From positions 1 through 8,161 of the forward strand of contig JAHFGF010000071.1 in NCBI GenBank assembly GCA_023247595.1: a stretch of 8,161 bases of DNA, given 5' to 3'. The notes under the pieces were generated by a model. That model was not told where the DNA came from. It saw only the letters and a list, made by a program, of their open reading frames with translations, and did not search any database. Each line of letters begins with the position of its first letter. The first letter of the stretch is position 1. This stretch comes from Candidatus Omnitrophota bacterium (GTDB lineage Bacteria; Omnitrophota; Koll11; Zapsychrales; Fredricksoniimonadaceae). Positions 1,304 to 5,734 of this stretch are shown here, piece after piece. The position numbers and the translations under genes are program-made.

Positions 1304-3754
1304 GTGAAGCGAGTGCTTATCTGGAGTTTCATCCTTTTAATAACAAGCGCTTATGCGGCGGGAGCGGTTGATCTTAACGCGCGGCTCCAGATTTCCGCGG
1401 ACGGCCAGGACGGAGCCAGGACTTTTACCGACTCAACCGGACGGCACACGATTACCGCCAATGGCGACGCGCAAATCGATACCGCTCAAAGCCAGGCCGG
1501 CGGCGCCTCAGCTCTTTTTGACGGGACGGGTGATTATTTAACGATTCCTGACAGCGATGATTGGAATTTTAAAACAGATGATTTTACCATTGAGTGCTGG
1601 GTACGATATTTGACGATTCCCGCCTACACCGCCTTTTTCAGCCAATTTCAGAGCGGCACAAGTTATATGCAGTTTATGAAATCAGGGAATTCCTTACGCT
1701 TTCTCGCCTATGATCTAACCGGGCATTTAATTATCGATATATCGAACACTTGGACTCCGGCCGCAAATAGATGGTATGACATAGAATTGAAAAGAAATGG
1801 CAATAGTTGGTCTATGTTTGTCAATGGGGCGCAGATAGGAAGCACGGCCGCGAATAGCAGTTCCATACCGAATTATACAGGCCCTGTCTATATTGGTTCC
1901 ACGAATGGAACGACTAATTTTATGAACGGCTGGATTGATGAGTTAAAGGTAAAGAAACTGGGTCTTAATTTTACCCTTTCCAGCCAAATTTTAGATTCGG
2001 GCGGTGGGGACGCGCCGACAAACTCCACAAATTTTGACCTCGTTCAAAGTTCTCTTGGGCAGACAGCCGTCGGTAATTCGGCGAGCACAAATTTTTCTCT
2101 TTCAGGCGGCTATTTATACACAACTTCCATAACCGCCAGCCCAAGTGAACTTCTCCTGGATGTCCGCGGGCTTGTCCATGATTTGACTCAAACGGGAGTC
2201 GATGTGGACGACATCAAAGCGGTCGTTAACGGCGAGGAATTTACCGCCGAAGATGTGCCTGTCACCGAGGGGCCGGCCACCGTTCATCTCACGGCTAAAG
2301 ACCAATTTGAGCATACCAGCCAATTGGACGTTAATTTCACCCTGGATGTCACGCCGCCGGCCAGACCAACCATTAATCCCGTGGAAACTCCGACGGAAAG
2401 TCCGACTCAAACAATCTCGGGAACCAGGGAAGCCGATAGTTCCATTTGGCTGATTAAAAATTCCGAGGAGATGGAGATTGTTCCTCGAGACAATCAACCA
2501 AGCTGGACTTACGCCTTAAGTCTCAATGAAGGAGAAAATAATTTTCAAATTTACGCTAAAGACCAAGCCGGCAACGAAAGCACGCGTGTCAGCAGTGCCA
2601 TTTATTTGGATTTACAAAACCCCAATGTGCAGATTATTTATCCGGCCAACGGGGCCAAGGTTAATCAAACGACACTGGATGTTTTAGGAACGGTTGATGA
2701 CGATCAAACAACGGTGACGGTTGAGGCCAATGGGGTCATCAAAGATGCGGTCGTGCAAAATCGAATGTTTGTTGTCCAGGGCGTTGTTCTTGTGAATAAT
2801 TCCTGGAACGCGGTTACGGCGGTGGCGACAAGCCCGTCGGGAAAAGAGTTCCCGTATCCTATTTCCGTTCGCTGTGAGACAACAGCCGTGCTGCCCAATC
2901 CGCCGACTCTTAATAACATCACTTCACCGACGAACCAGGCCACCCAGGTTTTATCTGGAACAAAGCCGTCCAACACTTATTTGTGGCTCAATGGGGCCAA
3001 ACGCGCGGATGTCAGTTTTCCATCGACAAGCTGGAGCTTCACGGAAAATTTACTCCCTGGAGGCAACCCCAATCTTTTGTATGTCAAAGACAGCGACTCA
3101 GCCAGCGCCAATGTCAGCCGCAGCGTTTCGGCAGGCATCTTTTACGATTCAACCGCGCCCACGAGGCCGTTGGTTATTGATGACGGAGTTTCCACCGATT
3201 CTAAAACCTCTTTAAGCGCTAAATGGAGTTCAGATGATTCAGAAACGGATATTGTGGACAATTTTTATTCCATCGGAACGGCCAAGGGCGCTCAGGACAT
3301 TGTGCCGCTTGCCTCCGTTGGAACAAATACGCAGGTTACCAGGACAGGTCTTAGTTTGGAACAGGGGAAAATTTATTATTTCACCGTGATTACCAAAAAC
3401 GCGGCCGGTTCACAGAGTGAACCCGGTTACAGCGACGGCATTCGGGTTAACGGCTCGGTACCGAAGATTACGAATGTGAGTCTTTTGGATTTAAGCAAGA
3501 TTTATCAAGGGACAAACGGAATCAATATCGCGGTGACGGCGGAGGATCAGGACGGCGACACGCTTCAATACCGTTTCACGATCGACGGGCAGATTGTTCA
3601 GAATTGGAGCGCGGACGTCGATTACGTATGGAATGTCCCGCCGGATGCCTTTGGCAGAAAGCATGTGGTCGTCGAAGTCAAAGACCCTGTCGGCGGCCAG
3701 GCGTATAAAGATATCCGTGTGTTTATTTTAAAACAGCCGATTGCTGTGCCGTGA
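1304..3754 (+). CDS. Secreted LamG plus Ig-like/FnIII multidomain protein
   Basis: This encodes 816 residues from GTG 1304 to TGA. I chose this start because it places a signal peptide at the N-terminus (KR, then VLIWSFILLITS, cleavage after AYA at residue 18). The same frame is open back to ATG 1070, but that adds 78 residues encoded by palindromic repeats. Residues ~60-218 are a LamG/concanavalin-like lectin fold (ALFDGTGDYLTIP, FTIECWVRY, WYDIELKRNG, MFVNG, GWIDELKV). Residues ~222-275 match a common secreted-protein motif (DSGGG, then S-x-NF, then LGQTAVG). Several bacterial Ig-like domains follow (DVTPPARP, SGTREADS, NEGENNFQIYAKDQAGN). An FnIII-like unit follows at ~620-720 (YYFTVITKNAAGSQSEPGYS), then a final domain with EDQDGDTLQYRF. 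No anchor or sorting tail is visible. It is probably an extracellular or surface binding protein; the ligand is unknown. Its GC-rich codons resemble those of the SpvB gene. Confidence 0.9.
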   Translation: MKRVLIWSFILLITSAYAAGAVDLNARLQISADGQDGARTFTDSTGRHTITANGDAQIDTAQSQAGGASALFDGTGDYLTIPDSDDWNFKTDDFTIECWVRYLTIPAYTAFFSQFQSGTSYMQFMKSGNSLRFLAYDLTGHLIIDISNTWTPAANRWYDIELKRNGNSWSMFVNGAQIGSTAANSSSIPNYTGPVYIGSTNGTTNFMNGWIDELKVKKLGLNFTLSSQILDSGGGDAPTNSTNFDLVQSSLGQTAVGNSASTNFSLSGGYLYTTSITASPSELLLDVRGLVHDLTQTGVDVDDIKAVVNGEEFTAEDVPVTEGPATVHLTAKDQFEHTSQLDVNFTLDVTPPARPTINPVETPTESPTQTISGTREADSSIWLIKNSEEMEIVPRDNQPSWTYALSLNEGENNFQIYAKDQAGNESTRVSSAIYLDLQNPNVQIIYPANGAKVNQTTLDVLGTVDDDQTTVTVEANGVIKDAVVQNRMFVVQGVVLVNNSWNAVTAVATSPSGKEFPYPISVRCETTAVLPNPPTLNNITSPTNQATQVLSGTKPSNTYLWLNGAKRADVSFPSTSWSFTENLLPGGNPNLLYVKDSDSASANVSRSVSAGIFYDSTAPTRPLVIDDGVSTDSKTSLSAKWSSDDSETDIVDNFYSIGTAKGAQDIVPLASVGTNTQVTRTGLSLEQGKIYYFTVITKNAAGSQSEPGYSDGIRVNGSVPKITNVSLLDLSKIYQGTNGINIAVTAEDQDGDTLQYRFTIDGQIVQNWSADVDYVWNVPPDAFGRKHVVVEVKDPVGGQAYKDIRVFILKQPIAVP

Positions 3755-3760
3755 GGGATG

Positions 3761-3783
3761 GTAGCCGCAACCTTTAGGTTGCG
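3761..3783. repeat. REP-like palindrome, family member R2
   Basis: GTAGCCGCAACCTTTAGG matches R1 except that the hairpin is CGCAACC-TTTA-GGTTGCG instead of GCACCC-TTTA-GGGTGC. The substitution is compensatory: a C-G pair has become A-T. It starts 6 nt after the LamG gene stop. The outer right arm seen in R1 and R3 is missing; a different palindrome (3796-3810) follows. Confidence 0.75.
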
Positions 3784-3795
3784 TTCAACCTTGAA

Positions 3796-3810
3796 GTCGC
3801 AATCTGCGAC
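3796..3810. repeat. Palindrome GTCGCA-ATC-TGCGAC
   Basis: Six-base perfect arms around ATC. On the minus strand, ATGTCGCAGATTGCGACTTC reads MSQIAT plus S, the same motif as in ORF6N-domain proteins. Its core TCGCA..TGCGA matches the palindrome inside the ORF6N gene at 4105-4135. Confidence 0.7.
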
Positions 3811-3859
3811 ATCCAATTCTTTAAGGTCACAAATTGTGACCTTAAAGAATGAGTTGGAT
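3811..3859. repeat. Long near-perfect palindrome upstream of the ORF6N gene
   Basis: ATTCTTTAAGGTCACAA (3816-3832) and its exact reverse complement (3834-3850) flank a single A, giving 17-bp arms. ATCCAA (3811-3816) and TTGGAT (3854-3859) extend the symmetry with a short slip. Read on the minus strand, the core encodes LRSQFVTLK. No T-run follows. It could be a binding site, a REP-like unit or a structured RNA end. Confidence 0.8.
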
Positions 3860-3871
3860 ATGAAGGAACGG

Positions 3872-3886
3872 GTGACAAATTGTCAC
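3872..3886. repeat. Palindrome GTGACAA-A-TTGTCAC
   Basis: Seven-base arms around a central A, ending 23 nt before the ORF6N start. It has the same CAAATTG centre as the 35-nt palindrome at 3816-3850, but the outer bases are changed in a paired way (GTCAC/GTGAC against GTGAC/GTCAC). Its position suits an operator close to the start of the gene, though it could equally be a repeat. Confidence 0.65.
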
Positions 3887-3909
3887 TGGTTTTAATAGAA
3901 AGATTTGTA

Positions 3910-4434
3910 ATGATGAATAAATTGATCGCGTTAGAAATTATCGAACGGAAGATTTTTTTAATTCGAGGACATAAAGTCATGCTCGATAAAGATCTGGCTG
4001 TCCTTTACGGGATAAAACCCATTCGCTTACGTGAGCAAGTTAAAAGAAATATACAGCGATTCCCAGATGATTTTATGCTTCAATTAAATGATGAAGAAAT
4101 TAATTTGATGGTATCGCAAAATGCGATACCATCAAGGAAACATTTAGGAGGTCATCATCCGTATGTTTTTACAGAACAGGGTGTTGCCATGCTTTCTTCG
4201 GTTTTAAATACGGAAAGAGCAATTCAGGCTAATATCGTTATTATGCGTGCATTTGTTAAATTAAGACAGTTTATATTATCTCACAAAGAGTTAAATTATA
4301 GATTAAAATTATTGGAAGCTAATATGGATAAACACGATCATGAAATTCAAGCTATTTTAGGAGCCATTCGTAAGTTAATGGAACCACCACCCGAGAAACC
4401 AAAAATGCCGATCGGATTTCGGCCGGGGAGGTAA
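3910..4434 (+). CDS. ORF6N-domain protein (KilA/Ant-like putative DNA-binding)
   Basis: This encodes 174 residues from ATG 3910 (ATG 3913 is equally possible) to TAA. An in-frame TTG at 3880 lies inside a palindrome and is unlikely. AGAAAG at 3897-3902 is a weak ribosome site. Residues ~9-100 match the ORF6N domain: IERKIFLIRG, VMLDKDLAVLYG, VKRNIQRFPDDFMLQL, LGG, PYVFTEQGVAMLSSVLN. The downstream helix TERAIQANIVIMRAFVKLR is also typical. The C-terminus is coiled-coil-like (HKELNYRLKLLEANMDKHD) and ends PIGFRPGR, as often seen in the family. ORF6N proteins occur in phages and bacterial islands and are presumed to bind DNA; their function is poorly known. Residues 66-75 (LMVSQNAIPS) are encoded by a perfect inverted repeat. 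A 60-nt sample at 4261-4320 has 13 G+C, far below the neighbouring structural genes, so transfer is likely. The next gene starts 3 nt after its stop. Confidence 0.9.
   Translation: MMNKLIALEIIERKIFLIRGHKVMLDKDLAVLYGIKPIRLREQVKRNIQRFPDDFMLQLNDEEINLMVSQNAIPSRKHLGGHHPYVFTEQGVAMLSSVLNTERAIQANIVIMRAFVKLRQFILSHKELNYRLKLLEANMDKHDHEIQAILGAIRKLMEPPPEKPKMPIGFRPGR
4105..4135. repeat. Palindrome inside the ORF6N coding sequence
   Basis: TTGATGGTATCGCA (4105-4118) and its exact reverse complement (4122-4135) flank AAA, giving 14-bp arms. It lies fully in frame and encodes LMVSQNAIPS, at the position where ORF6N proteins usually have LRSQ-x-x-TS. The core TCGCA..TGCGA matches the intergenic palindrome at 3796-3810. 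Confidence 0.85.
4425..4431 (+). promoter_or_regulatory. Strong Shine-Dalgarno for fibre copy B
   Basis: GGGGAGG lies inside the last codons of the ORF6N gene, 6 nt before ATG 4438. It fixes the start of copy B and suggests translation from the same mRNA as the ORF6N gene. Confidence 0.8.
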
Positions 4435-4437
4435 AGT

Positions 4438-5595
4438 ATGAAAAGAATATTTTTAACAATTTTTTTACTTTTGTCAGCAGTGTTTGGCTATGCGGATGTC
4501 CCCAAACTTCTTCATTACCAGGGCCAGGTCAATGACGGCCAGGGGATTCCGCTCGACGGCAGTCACAAATTAAGTTTCCGGCTCTACGACGCGCAGGTGC
4601 AGGGGAATTTGTTGTGGCAGGAGAGTTTTAATCCCGTGGCTGTAACGAAAGGAAATTTCGCGGTACTTTTGGATGTGGGAACAGCGGCTCCCGCGTTAAC
4701 GTTTAATCAATCCTATTGGCTCTCGATTGAAGTCGATGACGATGGGGAAATGACACCGCGCCAGCAGATTGCCTCGAGCGCTTACTCTATTAATACCAGC
4801 ACAGTCAATGGAATCCCCGCTTCGACAACCGCCCAGGCAAATAAGATTCTTCCTTTAAACGCTCAAGGGAAATTCCCGCAGAGTGTGCTGGACATCCAGC
4901 AGGGCCCGGGAGGAAACTTTAACGCGGACACGGTGGATGGTTTTCATGCGTCGAGCACTCCAACAGCCAACACATTGCTGCCGCTTGATTCAAGTGCTAA
5001 GGTTCCCTTAAATTCCATTCCTCAAGATCAAGGCAGCGGACTCAACGCGGATAAAGTGGATGGCAAAGAGGCGAGCCAATTATTGGATCGCGCTAATCAC
5101 ACCGGCGTCCAGCCGCCGAGTTCAATTTCACCGCAGGGCTCTGGCAGTGGCCTCGATGCGGATAAAGTGGATGGAGAAGATTTAGATGAAATATATAATG
5201 TTATCGATGAAAAAATTAAAATCCTATTTATCGCTGAAGCAGGAGATTCCCCAGTGGCTCGTGCAGATGATGAAGAAACGAATGTTTCACCAACCGAATG
5301 GGAAAAAATCAAAGAGATATATGTACCTCTAGAAGGAACTCTTAGAATTAAGTTTGATATGCATGGGACAGGAAGATATGGTCTTAGCCAAATTTATAGG
5401 AATGGAGTTCGAGTAGGTACATTGCAACAAACTTCTAATCCAAGTTATCAAACCTATTCTGAGGATATTGGGGGATGGAAGGCAGGAGATTTGTGTCAAT
5501 TGTATGTCAGGGGGGATAGTGGACAGACTACAACTGTTAGAAATTTTTGGATTTGTTTAAATAAGAGCATATATTTTATGATCACAGACCCTTAA
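4438..5595 (+). CDS. Secreted fibre-like YQG-family protein, copy B (complete)
   Basis: This encodes 385 residues, starting at ATG after a strong ribosome site. Residues 1-19 form a signal peptide (MKRIFLTIFLLLSAVFGYA). Residues ~22-116 are a widespread secreted head domain with LLHYQGQVND, LSFRLYDA, LLWQE, GNFAVLLDVG, YWLSIEVDDDGEMTPRQ and SSAYS. Four repeats of about 40 residues follow, starting near 119, 162, 203 and 240, with the pattern NADxVDGxxAS, then AN-x-LLPL, then KxP. The third contains ANHTGVQPPSSISP, a motif reminiscent of phage tail-fibre shafts. Residues ~270-385 form a probable beta-sandwich tip (YRNGVRVG, WKAGDLCQLYVRGD). The head samples at 60% and 58% G+C and the tip at 35% (hand counts), so the tip looks like a foreign cassette. 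It is probably an extracellular fibre or adhesin subunit; the ligand is unknown. The SpvB-type gene follows after 166 nt. Confidence 0.9.
   Translation: MKRIFLTIFLLLSAVFGYADVPKLLHYQGQVNDGQGIPLDGSHKLSFRLYDAQVQGNLLWQESFNPVAVTKGNFAVLLDVGTAAPALTFNQSYWLSIEVDDDGEMTPRQQIASSAYSINTSTVNGIPASTTAQANKILPLNAQGKFPQSVLDIQQGPGGNFNADTVDGFHASSTPTANTLLPLDSSAKVPLNSIPQDQGSGLNADKVDGKEASQLLDRANHTGVQPPSSISPQGSGSGLDADKVDGEDLDEIYNVIDEKIKILFIAEAGDSPVARADDEETNVSPTEWEKIKEIYVPLEGTLRIKFDMHGTGRYGLSQIYRNGVRVGTLQQTSNPSYQTYSEDIGGWKAGDLCQLYVRGDSGQTTTVRNFWICLNKSIYFMITDP
4935..5174 (+). repeat. Long direct repeat shared with 1-240
   Basis: This is the copy B partner of the repeat at the left edge. Most differences are third-base changes, so the protein shaft is conserved. 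GCGGATAAAGTGGATGG occurs twice inside each copy (111-128 and 224-240; 5047-5063 and 5158-5174), once for each DADKVDG/NADKVDG motif. Confidence 0.85.
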
Positions 5596-5682: not shown

Positions 5683-5734
5683 GTAGGCGCACCCTTTAGG
5701 GTGCGATAACATGTGCACTAAAGGGTGCGCCTAC
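5683..5734. repeat. REP-like palindrome, family member R3 (complete)
   Basis: GTAGGCGCACCCTTTAG (5683-5699) and its perfect reverse complement (5718-5734) flank 18 nt. A local hairpin, CGCACCC-TTTA-GGGTGCG (5688-5705), competes with the long stem. It is the best-preserved of three family members. In the flank it has G-C where R1 has C-G (GTAGGCGC against GTAGCCGC), changed on both arms. It lies between fibre copy B and the SpvB-type gene, 27 nt before the start codon. Confidence 0.85.

Follow-up and report, generated by a model that had tools for sequence, protein, structure and literature searches.

A palindromic DNA site within ORF6N genes that follows the predicted recognition helix of the encoded protein

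Nearly all ORF6N genes examined, from a family of bacteria and phages, carry, inside their own coding sequence, a dyad centred on CA-NNN-TG that changes in step with the DNA-reading helix of the protein encoded by the same gene, a pattern which strongly suggests, as far as sequence can tell, that each ORF6N protein binds its own gene. The dyad, its constraint at the level of DNA and its match to the helix emerged plainly from the computations, and in the reading that we hold with high confidence ORF6N would be a helix-turn-helix (HTH) protein, probably a dimer, that binds the dyad in its own coding sequence and most likely limits its own expression by roadblock. Binding to the in-gene dyad is strongly indicated by the sequence comparisons, and the dimer, the repression and the roadblock are inferred. 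What is new here is a family-wide, frame-independent in-gene site following the protein's own recognition helix; the ORF6N domain was known, as was, for E. coli purR, a repressor with an operator in its own gene. ORF6N genes are common and, as far as a search of the open-licence literature shows, functionally undescribed, and no description of an ORF6N binding site or palindrome was found in that literature.

The ORF6N locus

The window, i.e., the whole stretch of 8,161 nucleotides that was analysed, contains one ORF6N gene and four dyads (Table 1). The encoded protein matched Pfam PF10543 over positions 2-86 of the 86 of the profile (E 2.3e-30, 105.1 bits, gathering cut-off 27.8), and a longer TTG start at 3880 is likewise open in the list of reading frames. 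The palindrome inside the gene, TTGATGGTATCGCA-AAA-TGCGATACCATCAA, is perfect, in frame and encodes LMVSQNAIPS, exactly as the first-pass annotation had described it. First-order Markov resampling of the window, done 100 times, produced no perfect arm longer than 11 bp and reached 9 bp or more in 9 resamples; the arms observed are 17 and 14 bp long.

Table 1. Features of the ORF6N locus in the window.
Feature	Position	Strand	Basis or description
ORF6N gene, 174 aa from ATG 3910	3910..4434	+	PF10543 match, list of open reading frames
Second (recognition) helix of the predicted HTH, residues 37-46	4018..4047	+	AlphaFold model and co-variation with the dyad
Specificity residues in the recognition helix	I38 4021-4023, R39 4024-4026, E42 4033-4035, Q43 4036-4038	+	Co-variation
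In-gene dyad, centre 4120	4105..4135	.	Perfect 14-bp arms, 3-nt centre
Upstream dyad 1, centre 3803, 107 bp before ATG 3910	3794..3812	.	TCG type
Upstream dyad 2, centre 3833, 77 bp before ATG	3816..3850	.	AGGTCA type, perfect 17-bp arms, 1-nt centre
Upstream dyad 3, centre 3879, 31 bp before ATG	3872..3886	.	GTGACAA-A-TTGTCAC

The same annotation had reported two palindromes upstream of the gene, of which dyad 2 is perfect and dyad 1 is weaker, with perfect arms of 6 bp around a 3-nt centre; dyad 3, which has the same core as the other window dyads, was absent from it. The peptides it had read from the upstream palindromes on the minus strand were translated correctly (positions 3774-3980 read ...SLRSQFVTLKNWMSQIATSRL...), yet they have no special standing, since the site is a palindrome and similar peptides therefore appear on both strands, the plus strand at 3785-3895 reading STLKSQSATSNSLRSQIVTLKNELDMKERVTNCHWF. 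Nor does the in-gene peptide depart from the norm of its own subfamily: VSQNAIPS is present in 111 of 120 homologues among the matches listed (7999 scored), and it is other ORF6N subfamilies that usually have LRSQ(F/I)(A/V)T. A nucleotide search of positions 3740-4440 against a phage collection gave no match.

A dyad conserved as DNA across the family

Of 245 distinct ORF6N genes (those, among 262 distinct segments, with a domain of at least 240 nt), 237 contain a CA-NNN-TG dyad whose pairing extends for some 13 bp on each side, so that the palindromes are not absent at the SQ codons of related genes, an absence which the first-pass annotation would have taken as refutation. A dyad was called when at least six of the nine pairs at positions 4-12 around any CANNNTG were complementary, which by estimate would occur by chance in a few percent of genes. 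Pairing frequencies were 0.89-0.99 at positions 4-12 and 0.85 at position 13, and then fell to 0.61, 0.56 and 0.13-0.36; as positions 2-3 were fixed by the search and positions 4-12 were used to choose the site, the fall after position 13 is the informative part, and it sets the site at about 27 bp. Perfect arms of at least 9 bp were present in 65 of 100 genes, taken from 113 distinct segments, and in 0.9% of the synonymous-codon shuffles that served as null. In most genes of the set examined for position the dyad lies 207-216 nt after the start, and in the window its centre is 210 nt after the A of the ATG.

Genes without a dyad amounted to 8 of 245 (several of them fragments), to 13 of 294 in a larger set, and to 8 of the 65 segments later held out for prediction, where five of the eight were of the ETK[YN]LKR type. 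This type forms a subgroup (L314, L318, L322, L323 and L340) with the helix ETK[YN]LKR[SA] and no dyad, L314 having LRCNF in its place, and it may read another type of site.

Palindromes of this kind are concentrated in ORF6N genes. The 52 ORF6N loci obtained from a scan of genome contigs, taken together with the window (796 kb), held 69 perfect palindromes with arms of at least 9 bp, and 41 of these fell inside an ORF6N gene, i.e., in 4.4% of the sequence; seven of the others had a CA-NNN-TG core, and six of the seven were within 250 bp of an ORF6N gene. ORF6N genes occurred in 101 of 119 genomes searched in one genus and in 114 of 193 in one phylum; the genes compared here were taken best-scoring first and not randomly. 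ORF6N is listed in the Bro network of phage and bacterial DNA-interacting domains, together with KilA-N, Bro-N and Rha (PMC10111431); the sections of that text consulted describe no binding site, and in our controls such an in-gene dyad was found in none of seven KilA-N loci and not in the one clear Rha locus.

Two observations indicate that the dyad is conserved as DNA. It is read in frame 0 in 224 of the 237 genes and in frame +1 in the other 13, with the same centre, and the mismatches in 159 unique palindromes (24 G-U, 37 A-C and 63 other) show no excess of G-U on the mRNA strand. In frame 0 the dyad encodes SQ peptides and others, in frame +1 VVAICDH, VITICDN and others, so that a shared peptide, proposed in the first-pass annotation as what links gene and repeats, is not the cause: the same DNA is simply read in another frame. 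These data also bear on the idea that the palindrome acts as an mRNA hairpin (in attenuation, stability or control of translation) with DNA binding incidental to it. Compensatory changes between the arms are what an RNA stem would show as well, but the mismatches lack a G-U excess, the CA-NNN-TG centre is identical in both reading frames, and a hairpin does not predict the co-variation of arm bases with the HTH helix described below; we regard the hairpin as very improbable.

Helix and dyad change together

The 237 proteins were aligned, and 145 representatives were retained that share less than 75% identity when the palindrome-coded peptide is disregarded. Among alignment columns outside that peptide, the base triplet at positions -6 to -4 of the dyad shared most mutual information with column 40 (z 45), column 37 (z 30) and column 41 (z 17), the next-best outside column reaching z 6.6. 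The co-varying columns (36, 37, 40 and 41) belong to the helix of the motif LYGVETKxLNxxVKRN. In the AlphaFold model of the window protein, which is moderate overall (pLDDT 77, pTM 0.62), helices are placed at residues 26-33 and 37-46 with a pLDDT of about 90 there, and the co-varying helix is predicted to be the second helix of an HTH.

The correspondence can be written as a simple code in which residue 40 sets base -4 (Q to A, E to G, R or K to C, L to T), and it fits 136 of the 143 representatives with a letter: A occurs with Q in 51 of 54 cases, G with E in 47 of 50, C with R or K in 34 of 35, and T with L in all four. Base -7 follows residue 36, which is K in 84 of 93 representatives with G and once among the 47 representatives listed with A. 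Both rules hold in the window, where base -4 is G (4116), as predicted from E42, and base -7 is A (4113), as predicted from a residue 38 other than K. Among genes with a single dyad 5 of 183 broke the rule, namely L031 with a mis-parsed helix, L010 with a second, matching module, and three real exceptions. The pairing of Gln with adenine, Arg or Lys with guanine and Glu with cytosine has the logic of known HTH contacts.

Kinship is an unlikely explanation of the match, judging from sister sequences: residue 40 differed in 70 of 78 sister pairs among the 79 with differing triplets, and in 4 of 55 among 56 with equal triplets, the latter being the least similar of 94 such pairs, chosen to match identity (mean 0.67 vs. 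0.70). A link inside the protein would be another way to obtain it, with the loop peptide and the helix co-evolving and the DNA merely following, and the palindrome does encode a loop which the model places in the same domain as the HTH. Nevertheless a single code applies to frame 0, to the nine applicable frame +1 representatives, which encode an unrelated peptide (TCG with R..EQ in three and with R..ER in one; TCA with A..QA in two, V..QA in two and I..QQ in one), and to the MVSQ class (TCG with R..EQ in five, TCA with V..QA in one), so the loop-helix link is not the cause; synonymous positions are constrained too, and we give this explanation hardly any credence. One frame +1 representative, with TAA and H..TQ, stood outside the rule.

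The base -4 rule was fixed before ORF6N genes from plasmids, phages and IMG/VR were gathered, and it then gave the correct base in all 52 testable genes among 65 ORF6N segments from plasmid and viral records, 12 of the 52 (L306-L316) having been inspected before the formal test, with the rule unchanged. The 13 segments left out comprised three duplicates, one without a parsable helix, one mis-parsed and the eight without a dyad, and overlap with the training set was judged by exact matches of 40 and 50 residues. The observed bases were 30 A, 12 C and 10 G; after clustering at 75% identity the score was 44 of 44, and at base -7 a K predicted G in 14 of 14 genes and other residues predicted A in 32 of 38. 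Carriers of ORF6N include plasmids of Bacteroides, Sulfuricurvum, Butyrivibrio and Legionella, and viral contigs, in which a scan with a single protein found none, yielded 50 loci to a profile scan. Among the explanations offered by the first-pass annotation, recognition by the protein of the palindrome in its own gene thus gains strong support, both from the co-variation in the 145 representatives and from the hold-out genes, though in each case the binding is read from sequence.

As nearly all of its genes store their own target, the family could give, from sequence alone, thousands of matched protein-site pairs on which a protein-DNA recognition code might naturally be trained, and it might furnish DNA-binding proteins whose sites are known and differ. 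It is also a test case for the joint change of a regulator and its site within a single gene.

Additional, flanking and upstream dyads

Two or three dyads were present in 30 genes, at least one of them fitting the helix in 29, while the helix of the thirtieth (L303) was mis-parsed. Neighbouring dyads within genes were spaced by a multiple of three in 33 of 34 pairs. In six of the genes (L233, L304, L296, L144, L294 and L286) fitting dyads occur alongside foreign ones, as though a new palindrome had been added next to the old one when the specificity shifted. In a Pedobacter set (L226-L265) the number of SQ modules in genes of one ORF6N type ranges from one to three; the longest perfect arms there, of 23 bp in L235, extend past the 27-bp footprint and may point to some process by which arms become perfect.

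Around the 237 genes we counted 54 intergenic flanking dyads of mixed specificity, 42 upstream and 12 downstream. As operators of the adjacent gene they were rejected, no enrichment being found: base -4 equalled that of the adjacent gene in 22 of 54 (null 20.0) and all six half-site bases in 4 (null 3.0). Of the 281 genes having an in-gene dyad, 43 had a dyad upstream at no more than 200 bp from the start codon, and base -4 fitted the code of the own protein in 26 of the 57 upstream dyads counted; with so few genes concerned and no enrichment for own specificity, a classical promoter operator is therefore not general in the family. Measured from the start codon, 16 of the 57 fall between -24 and -33, six of them exactly at -26. 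In L389, L383 and L376-L378, from the phylum of G005 (the genome that holds L005), a second dyad is centred 25-26 bp before the start and the in-gene dyad lies at +207. In L389 four intergenic dyads, representing three triplet types (TCG, TCA, TTC, TCA), also form an array, which the array of the window (-107, -77, -31) resembles. In the window, dyad 1 agrees with the protein at base -4 and disagrees at the outer bases, dyad 2 suits a Q-type ORF6N protein and not the window's own E type, and dyad 3 has A at base -4 where the protein predicts G.

The intergenic dyads, those of the window included, may be operators for ORF6N proteins of other specificities, encoded in the same cell or by phages and plasmids. 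The upstream bias, the clustering of upstream dyads near -26 and the mixed specificities in L389 and the window point that way, and we consider this possible, at somewhat less than even chance; against it, most genes have no upstream dyad, and just 1 of 30 perfect flanking dyads matched another examined ORF6N gene of the same genome (null 1.5), a comparison available for the 19 whose genome had another gene. Alternatively, they may be remnants of deleted or decayed ORF6N genes. The plus strand at 3785-3895 resembles the double modules of L014, L015 and L045, and similarity to ORF6N relics was detected at 4 of the 24 distant core sites considered below (L108, L114, L127 and L129); on the other hand, perfect 17-bp arms in a window with no ORF6N match besides the gene itself would be unlikely under neutral decay, and the clustering at -26 also speaks against it. 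This origin we likewise regard as possible, though rather less likely than not.

Paralogues within a genome shared the 6-base half-site in 10 of 133 pairs (10.5 expected) and the triplet in 30 of 133 (37.3 expected, p 0.10), and the notion that paralogues are kept orthogonal, avoiding cross-repression, was dropped, as these pairs gave no signal.

Distribution in genomes and the mobile-unit explanation

For the inner core of the dyad, TCRCAANTTGYGA, we scanned 28 whole genomes from relatives (97 Mb), drawn from 29 of the first 52 loci. The scan gave 72 sites, and the reversed control pattern gave 8; 42 of the 72 lie inside ORF6N domains, 6 within 1 kb of one, and 24 elsewhere, the last with arms of at least 9 bp in 8 cases and under 9 bp in 16. 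The pattern covers the TCA and TCG types only and was found in 39 of the 79 ORF6N matches of these genomes. In these genomes there are few other strong copies of the TCR-type core, and a dispersed genome-wide repeat was rejected, as 48 of the 72 sites lie inside an ORF6N domain or no more than 1 kb from one.

The first-pass annotation had also considered that the palindrome may be a mobile unit that inserts in frame, taken here as insertion in ORF6N genes and nearby. Extra in-frame modules do adjoin the main site, as the genes with several dyads, their spacing by multiples of three and the variable number of modules in Pedobacter attest, and the flanking dyads of mixed specificity and the arrays such as that of L389 could be seen as further insertions. 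Yet the unit is not dispersed in the 28 genomes, and pure insertion would predict neither its single place in nearly every gene nor bases that follow the helix, which leaves this explanation improbable. The Rickettsia palindromic elements, to which the palindrome had been likened, are palindromic DNA found in frame inside many unrelated protein genes and dispersed; the ORF6N palindrome shares with them its in-frame position inside protein genes, but it is tied to a single family and corresponds to the protein that the gene encodes. REP/RAYT systems likewise pair a protein gene with a palindromic sequence, and as in them some ORF6N genes are flanked by sites. Unlike REP/RAYT, the ORF6N dyad shows no dispersal in the 28 genomes. 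The partner gene in REP/RAYT encodes a Y1 transposase; the four window proteins scanned against profiles, the ORF6N protein included, gave no transposase match.

Proposed autoregulation from within the gene

Under the reading that we prefer, binding of each ORF6N protein to its own gene, the protein would form a dimer, probably through its C-terminal coiled coil, and the dimer would bind the CA-NNN-TG dyad, some 27 bp long. Almost all ORF6N genes would carry a dyad suited to the specificity of their own protein, and the codons of the dyad would serve twice, as a tolerant loop of the protein and as its own operator, the site lying between the HTH half and the PYVFTEQG strand, where the protein seems tolerant of varied sequence. 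The bound protein would most likely block RNA polymerase within the gene, a negative autoregulation by roadblock which a second dyad near the start codon may help in some genes. A gene moved horizontally would bring its own control along, site and reader travelling together.

We would tentatively go further and see in ORF6N self-addressed genes, in which a single run of codons would be both a loop of the protein and its chief genomic address. Their specificity might shift by a new in-frame palindrome next to the old one and two or three changes in the helix, and foreign upstream dyads might wire bacterial, phage and plasmid ORF6N genes into a network of mutual control; they would then constitute a portable, perhaps selfish, autoregulating element whose protein-DNA code can be read.

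The nearest known counterpart is purR of Escherichia coli, whose product, a dimeric HTH repressor, reportedly has an operator close to the start of purR and a second one within the gene. The likeness lies in the internal operator of the own gene, with roadblock or looping as its likely effect. PurR is one regulator with many other targets, whereas the ORF6N family keeps its internal site across phyla, at one place and independently of frame, with site and helix changing together and with few other strong copies of the site (TCR-type core, 28 genomes). Moreover, the promoter-near operator of purR is said to match, while an upstream dyad is restricted to the minority of ORF6N genes given above and follows the own code at base -4 in fewer than half of the cases. 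ORF6N would hence work like purR without being a member of the purR type. A protein combining ORF6N and KilAC has been labelled an antirepressor (PMC6591296).

Structural searches and other repeats in the window

A search of the PDB by sequence returned five weak matches, to the C-terminal helical part (best E 0.015). By fold, the closest solved structures to model m567bfcaf6257 were SKI/SnoN/Dachshund homology domains, a possible distant link to that animal DNA-binding domain; with E values of 0.037-0.26 the matches were too weak to serve as a basis and were set aside.

Two other kinds of repeat were seen in the window. A GC-rich repeat, GTAGGCGCACCCTTTAGGGTGCG, occurs with variants between genes at 5683-5734, 811-840 and 3762-3785, one occurrence being an inverted pair, perfect over 17 bp, that encloses an 18-nt loop; this repeat resembles intergenic REP-like elements and seems unrelated to the ORF6N dyad. 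A repeat-rich protein (GSGLNADKVDGKEASQLLDR...) is encoded in two copies, at 44-667 and 4438-5592, which differ in their C-terminal ends and flank a large Laminin_G/Glucodextran_B gene together with the ORF6N gene, and similar ATGACAAC(C/A)TTCGG stretches follow both copies.
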